64,000 nucleotides of DNA from an uncultured Kordiimonas sp. (GTDB taxonomy: Bacteria; Pseudomonadota; Alphaproteobacteria; Sphingomonadales; Kordiimonadaceae), in the NCBI GenBank assembly GCA_947503625.1, contig CANNEK010000003.1, positions 1-64,000 on the forward strand, read 5' to 3'. Below the pieces are notes generated by a model. That model did no database searches and was not told the origin of the DNA. It saw nothing but the letters and a program-made list of their open reading frames with translations. Below, in pieces: positions 21,354-40,702 of this stretch (the first letter of the stretch is position 1; each line of letters opens with the position of its first letter). Both the position numbers and the translations under genes were made by a program.

Positions 21354-22901
21354 TCAGGCAGTGGCCGCAAGGGGTTGCTTTTGCCTTTTTACCATCAGTT
21401 TGTTGGCTGCAGCTACATAGGCCCGTGCAGCGGCAGTGACAGTATCCTCATGTGCGCCCTGACCATTCACAGTCCGGCCATCTTCCTCCAGTCGCACAGT
21501 GCATTCTGCTTGTGCGTCCGTGCCCTGCGTAACAGCATGAACCTGAAACAGGACCAGATGAGGAGCAAATTCCACAAGCTCCTTTATCGCGTTGAAAACT
21601 GCGTCGACCGGTCCAGACCCGTAAACAACAGCTTTTCTCTCTTCATCGTCAATTTTCATGGTCAGATCAGCGACAGCGCTACCGTTCGAAGACGAATGTG
21701 TATTCAGGGAAATCACCTGAAACCTGTTCGCACCAGTGGCGACTTCATCATCAACAAGCGCGACAATGTCTTCGTCGTAGATGGTCTTCTTACGGTCAGC
21801 CAGCTCTTTGAAACGCCGGAAACAGTCCTGAAAAGCATTGTCACCAAGCTCATATCCGAGTTCCTTCATTTTGTCCGCGAAGGCCGCGCGACCGGACAAT
21901 TTACCAAGAACAAGTTTTTTGGTTGTGACGCCAACCGATTCCGGAGTCATGATTTCATATGTTTCGGCAGCTTTCAAAACACCGTCCTGATGAATACCGC
22001 TTTCGTGCGCAAACGCATTGGCCCCTACAATTGCCTTGTTATTTTGGACACTGAAACCTGTAACTGTTGAGACCAGTTTGCTGGCGCGGGAGATATCTGT
22101 CGTTTTAATGCCGGTGCTATAGGGCATCACGTCAGCGCGTGTCCGAAGAGCCATTACGACTTCTTCCATGGCTGCGTTACCGGCACGTTCGCCAATACCA
22201 TTTATTGTGCACTCGATTTGTCGTGCTCCGCCTGCAACACCGGCAAGTGAATTGGCAACCGCCAAACCCAGATCGTTGTGACAATGTGTCGAGAAAATTG
22301 CCTTGTCAGAATTGGCGACGTTTTCGATCACGTCTCGATACATCTGTCCATATTCCGACGGTACCGCGTAACCGACTGTATCAGGCAAGTTGATGGTGGT
22401 TGCCCCGGCCTTGATAGCCGTATCTACGGCACGATAAAGAAAGTCCATATCGGTGCGGGTCGCGTCCTCTGCTGACCACTCAACATCTTCGACAAAGTTG
22501 CGGGCGCGGCTTACGGACTGATGGATGGCATCCAGAACCGCTTCAGGTTCCATCTGCAGCTTCACTTTCATGTGTAAAGGGCTGGTCGCGATGAATGTGT
22601 GAATACGGCCCATTTTTGCTGGCTTGATCGCTTCTGCGGCGCGGTCAATATCACCGAGCGCTGCTCGCGCAAGGGAACAAACAGTGGAGTTTTTGATTGT
22701 CTTTGCTATTTGATTGACACATTCGAAATCGCCGTTCGATGCAATGGCAAAACCGGCCTCGATGATGTCGACGCCCATCGCCTCCAACACTTCAGCGATC
22801 CGTAATTTTTCGTCTAAAGTCATGGAGGCGCCCGGAGACTGCTCGCCGTCCCTCAATGTCGTATCAAAGATACGAACACGATCCTGATCATGGTGTGACA
22901 T
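21354..22901 (-). CDS. leuA: 2-isopropylmalate synthase
   Basis: A 515-residue enzyme condensing acetyl-CoA with 2-oxoisovalerate, the first committed step of leucine synthesis. The TIM barrel opens with [16 protein letters not shown] and carries [18 protein letters not shown] and the metal-binding region; the C-terminal LeuA dimerisation domain (from about residue 385) supplies leucine feedback. Length is normal for the long LeuA type 1. The leader upstream contains a Leu-rich ORF and nested hairpins, suggesting leucine-responsive control. Confidence 0.96.
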
Positions 22902-22953
22902 GATATATTCCTAAACAAATATGTAAATTGGTTGAACTTGAATTCAGGCCTGT

Positions 22954-23013
22954 CCCTTAAGCACCGAAACGTTCGCGTTTCTGCCGGCGTGCCTAAGGGC
23001 CGACTAGTCGGCC
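22954..23013 (-). promoter_or_regulatory. Nested hairpins in the leuA leader
   Basis: The arms CCCTTA..GCAC..GAAACG (22954-22971) and CGTTTC..GTGC..TAAGGG (22976-22999) pair around a 4-nt loop. The adjoining GGCCGACTAGTCGGCC (22998-23013) is a perfect 16-bp palindrome sharing its last two bases with the big stem, so they could compete. The leader ORF stop codon (22993-22995) lies in the stem. No U-run follows the large hairpin, so the mechanism is not plain intrinsic termination. Confidence 0.6.
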
Positions 23014-23145
23014 AGCGCCCAGAAGTAGAAGAGAGAGGAGGAGTGTACCAAAAGCTAGAGTTGTCAGGCGTGCGCGAGCGTCAACCTGTTGCCTCGAAAC
23101 GGCAACGGCTTTTGCTGCTGCTTTGCTCTGAAGCGGCCTGTTCAT
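22993..23145 (-). CDS. Putative Leu-rich leader peptide of leuA
   Basis: A 50-residue ORF ending 91 bp before the leuA start, with AAGG 6 nt upstream of ATG 23145. Near its end it carries LLLSLLLLGAGRLVGP, with codons CTC CTC CTC TCT CTT CTA CTT CTG at 23020-23043. Such a run just before competing hairpins is the layout of amino-acid attenuation leaders, where ribosomes stall when charged tRNA-Leu is scarce. An alternative GTG start at 23175 adds 10 residues. It could instead be a small membrane protein, since LTTLAFGTLLLSLLLLGAGRLV would span a membrane. It is longer than the usual 15-30 residue leaders. Confidence 0.55.
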   Translation of the reverse strand: MNRPLQSKAAAKAVAVSRQQVDARARLTTLAFGTLLLSLLLLGAGRLVGP

Positions 23146-23291
23146 ACCGAACCTTGAACCTTTATTTAGTTTCACACTCTTAATAAGAAGATAGTGTAAT
23201 ATTTTCTGTGATTGTAGGGAAGTGAAATTTTATTTCAAAAAAAGCCCCAGCCAATGCCCGTAAAACGAACACATCGACAGGTTTATCAGTC

Positions 23292-23323
23292 AAAAAAAGG
23301 GCAGCTTCAGGAGAAAGCTGCCC
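23292..23323 (-). terminator. ilvC rho-independent terminator
   Basis: On the minus strand GGGCAGCTT-N7-AAGCTGCCC is followed by seven T's, a textbook intrinsic terminator 32-63 bp after the ilvC stop. It separates the ilvIHC unit from leuA. Confidence 0.9.
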
Positions 23324-23354
23324 CGTACTCTGAACAGTGACTGGCTGTCAAAAC

Positions 23355-40196: not shown

Positions 40197-40374
40197 TATT
40201 CTTTTCTTCTATTAGTAGCACTCAGCGCTAGAGATATTCCTCAATACTATCGCTAATAGTTTAATAAAAACAACCCGGCAATCACGCGGCGGGGCCTTGA
40301 CCAGGGCAAAACAAACACTTCTTTTCAGCAAAACCCTTCTCTTTTCGAAGGATCAGCACTATGTATGGTGTGCT

Positions 40375-40702
40375 GGTTTTCCAGCTATAGCGATAAACGA
40401 CGCAGTGAGTACGTATTGCGGACCCGGGGGCAGTGCCCGGCGCCTCCACCAGGAGGGGTTAACCACATGAGTTGACCTTTGCTAATGGGGGCGAACCAGG
40501 ATCGACGTGTATCGAAAGTTGTTTGTCTTTCGCTCGGGATGGCACCGCCGTGATGGGCCACCTTAAAATAAATGCTAACGACAATGACGTCGAGTTTGCT
40601 GTTGCTGCGTAAGCAGTCATAGCTGACTACATTTATCTAAATTCCTGAGGGTTGACGCCTTCAGGTGGGGGTTGGGCCACCTAGCAACAGAACGGCCCAC
40701 TT
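40375..40702 (+). ncRNA. ssrA: Two-piece (circularly permuted) tmRNA
   Basis: The acceptor piece comes first: a T-arm (CCGGGGGCAGTGCCCGG) followed by CGCCTCC-A-CCA ending at 40451. After a 35-nt intervening segment that is normally removed, the coding piece starts at 40487 with GGGGGCGAACCAGGATCGACG; GGGGGCG pairs with CGCCTCC to form the acceptor stem. The tag frame lies at 40574-40612 and is followed by hairpins and a pseudoknot-like GTGGG/CCCAC region. This permuted order is characteristic of alphaproteobacteria. It rescues stalled ribosomes and tags the nascent chain for proteolysis. The outer ends are estimated. Confidence 0.93.
40574..40612 (+). other. tmRNA proteolysis-tag reading frame
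   Basis: GCT AAC GAC AAT GAC GTC GAG TTT GCT GTT GCT GCG TAA encodes ANDNDVEFAVAA. Adding the alanine charged on tmRNA gives AANDNDVEFAVAA. The EFAVAA end matches other alphaproteobacterial tags, and the C-terminal AA is the ClpX-binding signal. Confidence 0.93.

Follow-up and report, generated by a model that had tools for sequence, protein, structure and literature searches.

A leucine-rich leader peptide and stop-codon hairpin upstream of leuA in Kordiimonas and other Alphaproteobacteria, a probable ribosome-mediated leucine attenuator

Introduction

In enterobacteria, leuA is preceded by leuL, a leader with a run of leucine codons that includes the rare CUA and with hairpins around its stop codon. 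A different logic operates in the erm-type translational attenuators, in which stalling of a ribosome on a leader open reading frame (ORF) frees a hidden ribosome-binding site. In actinobacteria, the LEU element combines a Leu-run leader before leuA with a base stem that joins the leucine codons to the leuA Shine-Dalgarno (SD) sequence; it takes the form of a conserved pseudoknot, and no CGACUUA core is described for it (Seliverstov et al., 2005; PMC1262725). Alphaproteobacteria have a branched-chain amino acid leader peptide before a different gene, ilvB, according to the citation of Vitreschak et al., 2004 in PMC1273637. The open literature that we searched, Vitreschak et al., 2004 being outside that search, yielded no description of an alphaproteobacterial leuA leader, nor of leuA control by leucine in this class.

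Here, we analyse a 64,000-nucleotide stretch of DNA from an uncultured Kordiimonas sp. (hereafter the window), in which a leucine-rich leader and a hairpin precede leuA and look like a switch that would raise leuA expression when leucine is scarce. Based on comparison with relatives across the class, we consider it probable that they form a cis-acting, ribosome-mediated leucine attenuator of leuA. Although switches of this kind are known, the present version has no Rfam family match.

Results

The minus strand of the window carries, in this order, ilvC, a terminator, a promoter candidate, the leader ORF and leuA. The features used below are:

24374-23355, minus strand: ilvC, named from position and sequence
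23298..23324, minus strand: intrinsic terminator 3' of ilvC, parting ilvC from the leader
23211..23238, minus strand: candidate sigma-70-like promoter (TTGAAA-16-TACAAT) 5' of the leader ORF, from a consensus scan only
22993..23145, minus strand: leader ORF, 50 aa, Leu-rich, C-terminal end AGRLVGP-stop; based on homologous leaders before leuA throughout Kordiimonadaceae and on pS/pN in the genus
23020..23043, minus strand: Leu run CTC CTC CTC TCT CTT CTA CTT CTG, Leu in 7 of 8 codons
23004..23010, minus strand: core 7-mer CGACTAG, covering the Arg-Leu codons and one further nt; most relatives have CGACUUA
22998..23013, minus strand: 16-nt palindrome GGCCGACTAGTCGGCC, not included among the functional parts
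22954..22999, minus strand: hairpin S1, arms 22999-22989 and 22964-22954, beginning 4 nt past the core 7-mer; backed by the Kordiimonadaceae alignment and by the class-wide tests below
22909..22912, minus strand: leuA Shine-Dalgarno AGGA, upstream of the ATG at 22901
21354..22901, minus strand: leuA, 2-isopropylmalate synthase, the putative regulated gene; NCBIfam NF002087 and TIGR00973 above cut-offs

The ilvC terminator and the candidate promoter would fit a leuA transcript of its own that carries the leader. As an initial annotation of this DNA had described, the minus-strand ORF at 23145..22993 has 50 codons, encodes MNRPLQSKAAAKAVAVSRQQVDARARLTTLAFGTLLLSLLLLGAGRLVGP, and has its stop codon 91 nt before the leuA ATG (22901); its seven Leu in eight codons are unique to it among the 1588 open stretches of at least 25 codons in the window. 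The good ribosome-binding site that the same annotation assigned to the ORF, AAGGTTCGGTATG, is acceptable in the window species, though not conserved.

This element shares with the enterobacterial leu attenuator (leuL; RF00512, Leu_leader) a Leu run including CUA, a hairpin at the stop codon and a position before leuA. Unlike RF00512, it has no U-run terminator in the window, and inspection and folding found no antiterminator; the architecture of CGACUUA plus S1 is particular to the alphaproteobacterial element, and the RF00512 covariance model gave no match in the window or its relatives. The actinobacterial LEU element is the closest in concept; both have a Leu-run leader before leuA, and a similar SD stem is predicted in relatives of the window element outside Kordiimonadaceae. 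However, a stem between Leu codons and SD was not found in the window and was not significant in Kordiimonadaceae, and a loop pseudoknot comparable to that of LEU, which we tested, was not supported. By these tests, the window element is a member of neither the LEU family nor RF00512. In its working it would come near the erm-type attenuators, the signal being amino acid supply and not an antibiotic, and we claim no sequence kinship with them. Folding predicts a default structure hiding the leuA ribosome-binding site in relatives, whereas in the window this site has no clear partner.

R1, a covariance model built on the hairpin region, was run on 30 Kordiimonadaceae genomes and gave a single strong match (E<=2.8e-9) in 29 of them and only a weak one (E=0.013) in the thirtieth, G097; in every Kordiimonadaceae locus inspected, the match adjoins leuA. 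A leader peptide before leuA was found across the genus and the family, with a C-terminus that is near-invariant (AGRL[IV]GP-stop, few exceptions). Judged from these comparisons, the leader and hairpin before leuA are no chance occurrence. The initial annotation had proposed conservation of the Leu run in relatives as a check on its reading, and the run is indeed conserved: in the genus Kordiimonas pS is 0.65 and pN 0.22 over the Leu run. Leucine is kept at the protein level in these leaders, while synonymous codons swap freely and replacements are rare. CUA makes up 29% of the Leu codons in Kordiimonas leaders vs 4.4% in the genes of the window (odds ratio 8.9, p=1.4e-20); rare Leu codons are what a sensor of leucine supply would favour, as enterobacterial leuL suggests by analogy. 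A different constraint is seen in the last seven codons of the genus leaders, in which pS is 0.27 and pN 0.04 and the codons CGA, GGC and CCT are invariant in 19/19 leaders. The low pS and the fixed codons indicate a constraint at the RNA level, and codon reading alone is therefore insufficient to account for this end of the leader.

The other end of the peptide shows a pattern of its own. An N-terminal motif, AK[AS][IV]A, is kept in Kordiimonas leaders (window 23145-23085, minus strand; L001-L020) with varying codons, which points to selection on the peptide in this genus. A similar motif was considered as a class-wide feature and rejected, being present in 4/56 leaders with about 1 expected.

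Across the class, what stays invariant is CGACUUA together with the hairpin, and the Leu run, which the initial annotation had placed at the centre of the element, is not supported as its core. Kordiimonadaceae have the strongest run, and elsewhere it can be reduced to Leu-Arg-Leu. The core reads CGACUUA-N4-CCCYUGA...UCARGGG and the peptide ends in RLxxP-stop, the layout being [Leu]-CGA-CUU-A, four variable nucleotides, CCCYUGA holding the stop codon, a loop and the complementary arm. CGACU is present in 69-70 of 70 elements. Among named genomes, the pattern CGACTTATHGGCCCYTRARC is found in 46 contigs, most often directly upstream of leuA, and the leuA-linked matches come from Gluconobacter and other Acetobacteraceae, Tistrella, Oleisolibacter, Arboricoccus and Kordiimonadaceae. 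The same scan put the relatives of the window in Kordiimonas / Kordiimonadaceae. We also surveyed 90 leuA upstream regions sampled across Alphaproteobacteria, and 41 of them have the core, with 2.6 expected from shuffled sequence; CGACTWR is likewise found in 41/90, with 4.6 expected. A helix begins exactly at +11, 4 nt past the 7-mer, in 38 of these 41 sites, against an expectation of 1.7 from shuffling the 3' side. Outside Kordiimonadaceae, the stop codon lies 15 nt from CGA (RLxxP-stop) in 50 of 52 leaders, and a Leu codon immediately precedes CGA in 48 of the 52. Some of these leaders are non-hydrophobic, and the leader ORF of Gluconobacter has 14 codons (MTFLSILSLRLIGP, then stop). Conserved unpaired nucleotides beyond the 7-mer were not seen in the class elements.

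The remaining 49/90 surveyed leuA upstream regions (L107-L196 set) are without the element. Two loci labelled Candidatus Aerophobetes and Acidobacteria (L079 and L093) have an alphaproteobacterial leader before leuA; L079 matches Kordiimonadales sequence, so mis-binning is probable. In L068 and L085, the pattern is matched with no recognised leuA on the 3' side, and the L085 match is probably due to chance.

In the window, the S1 arms are CCCTTAGGCAC and GTGCTTAAGGG with the cap GAAACG-CGAA-CGTTTC, the stop codon TAG (22995-22993) lies inside the 5' arm, and no U-run is found 3' of S1. This long hairpin is as the initial annotation had drawn it, and the absence of a U-run that it noted is general, holding for S1 in 72/77 elements. 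The compensatory changes that it had suggested seeking in the stems of relatives were found for S1, in 8/11 pairs class-wide, with the observed values reached by 0/500 shuffles; because the 3' arms were registered by complementarity in the class-wide alignment (A3), this test leans to pairing, and the +11 helix test is the less biased of the two. The palindrome fared differently. It is present and perfect in the window, but it is of 16 nt and not of 16 bp, and two of its C's also belong to the S1 base. Its role as a competing hairpin, put forward in the same annotation, was rejected: it is perfect in the window species only, no pair is changed on both sides (equal to shuffles), and it is missing from other families that retain the rest of the element. 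For the S1 arms themselves, no conserved alternative partner or structure excluding S1 was seen by inspection and folding.

How S1 might act on leuA was addressed in 44 non-redundant lineages outside Kordiimonadaceae. The predicted pairing of the leuA SD is 0.54 with the 3' end of its own leader vs 0.31 with swapped leaders (p=5.2e-9), and duplex energies concur. The pairing tests went through several segment definitions, and the p-values given here carry neither a correction nor an adjustment for relatedness. The spacing of S1 and the leuA ATG varies within a narrow range, its median being 51 nt and its interquartile range 46-55. When the footprint of a stalled ribosome is blocked in the fold, mean SD accessibility goes from 0.33 to 0.42-0.48, and with the ribosome at the stop codon it is 0.41; this predicted gain is modest and partly expected on removal of any upstream sequence. 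Own-leader pairing, narrow spacing and the accessibility gain together favour, by modelling, translational attenuation outside Kordiimonadaceae. Within Kordiimonadaceae, pairing of the SD with the leader falls short of significance (p=0.07), and the leuA SD of the window pairs with the leader end at only 0.08 and has no clear partner.

Other pairings and events were considered. The minimum free energy fold pairs window positions 23177-23161 in the 5' UTR (GUGUGA..CUAAAUAAA) with 22922-22893 on the minus strand, the latter holding the leuA Shine-Dalgarno and first codons; support for this pairing in the genus is weak (p=0.03 vs swap, 0.09 vs shuffle). A stem in Kordiimonadaceae closed by CGACUUA and the segment after S1 was not supported. 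A pseudoknot joining the S1 loop to the stretch that follows S1, an idea that originated in GGC/GCC covariation seen by eye in L010, L013 and L015, gave p=0.21 against swapped partners and did not beat shuffled partners either. A +1 frameshift at CUU-A was dropped; the other frames end before leuA in the loci read.

Discussion

The locus has a translatable leader with clustered Leu codons before a biosynthetic gene, and a conserved RNA structure, S1, over the 3' end of that leader, which are general marks of an attenuator; the attenuation architecture recognised in the initial annotation is supported in part, as a conserved Leu-codon leader and hairpin before leuA. By comparison of sequences, we have shown conservation of the leader, selection on Leu and CUA, the CGACUUA motif, S1 and, in other Alphaproteobacteria, a predicted SD pairing. 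From these we infer that leucine would be the signal, that stalling would be the sensing event, and in which direction control would run. A ribosome translating the leader would read the supply of Leu-tRNA at a Leu run that is rich in rare codons and ends in an invariant CGA-CUU/CUA pair just before the stop. When leucine is ample, the ribosome would reach the stop codon inside S1 and depart, S1 would form and, in relatives, the last Leu and Arg codons of the leader would pair with the leuA ribosome-binding region and hide it. When leucine is short, the ribosome would stall on the Leu codons and cover the coding arm, and leuA would be expressed. In the window species, the last step may follow the translational route predicted for relatives or may depend on Rho.

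Transcription attenuation in the window species is a possible but somewhat unlikely alternative, in which S1 or the RNA exposed 3' of it would end transcription in a Rho-dependent manner once the leader has been fully translated, and stalling on Leu codons would prevent this termination. Such an account would suit a window in which SD sequestration is undetectable. It would also suit the few relatives with a U-run after S1: in Eilatimonas milleporae (L014/L045) S1 is directly followed by T5 (L014 sequence, GGGTTTTTGAG) and in L181 (G356) by T8 (GGGGTTTTTTTT), so that S1 can serve there as an intrinsic terminator. However, the window and the great majority of elements are without a U-run, and the tight spacing between S1 and the leuA start suggests a tie to initiation. 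L181 also has CAACTTA in place of CGACTTA.

The leader peptide could act by itself, as in TnaC, where arrest is mediated by the peptide with tryptophan: a peptide ending in RL[IVT][GRS]P-stop would stall its own termination, with leucine as a possible co-factor. The near-invariance of RLxxP-stop across the class would be expected of such a peptide, as would the retention of AK[AS][IV]A at the peptide level in Kordiimonas, yet arginine, for which six codons are available, is encoded almost exclusively by CGA, and across the class the two positions preceding the proline are free to vary, both of which argue for a constraint on the RNA. The enrichment of rare CUA would also be left unexplained, and we regard nascent-peptide arrest as improbable. 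Still less credible, and very unlikely in our view, is a riboswitch-like RNA element whose ligand would be a protein or small molecule and in which the ORF would be a passenger. A near-invariant CGACUUA at a set position beside a hairpin is what such an element might look like, but the open frame with its Leu codons and the stop position fixed in nearly all leaders would then have no place, and a binding site would be hard to reconcile with the lack of conserved unpaired nucleotides seen outside the 7-mer. We give scarcely any credence to the suggestion of the initial annotation that the ORF encodes a membrane micro-protein, the RNA features being incidental, since the basic N-terminus, the hydrophobic stretch that follows it and some peptide-level conservation in Kordiimonadaceae are set against 14-codon or non-hydrophobic leaders with the same element elsewhere, the covariation of S1, the constant presence of leuA downstream in the Kordiimonadaceae loci inspected and the lack of a Pfam or NCBIfam match above cut-off for the leader peptide. 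The 14-codon leaders, as in Gluconobacter, make this unlikely as a general or main function, and the conserved N-terminal motif would allow some such role in Kordiimonas.

A ribosome-mediated leucine attenuator of leuA could have a wider meaning. We tentatively propose a previously undescribed, class-wide leuA element whose fixed Leu-Arg(CGA)-Leu signal both senses leucine and forms the arm that hides the SD, some lineages such as Kordiimonas having changed the read-out; with the same reserve, we would place this signal four nucleotides before the stop-codon hairpin. Since the element is common to acetic acid bacteria, Tistrella, Oleisolibacter and Kordiimonas, the putative switch is testable in cultured strains, for example Gluconobacter oxydans. 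The same leader core is found with read-outs of apparently translational type, of apparently intrinsic-terminator type (Eilatimonas, L181) and, in the window species, of a type that may be translational or Rho-dependent, which would offer a natural series on the evolution of attenuation read-out.

An Rfam search of the window returned tmRNA models only, and a two-piece (permuted) alphaproteobacterial tmRNA gene lies at positions 40333-40701 on the plus strand.
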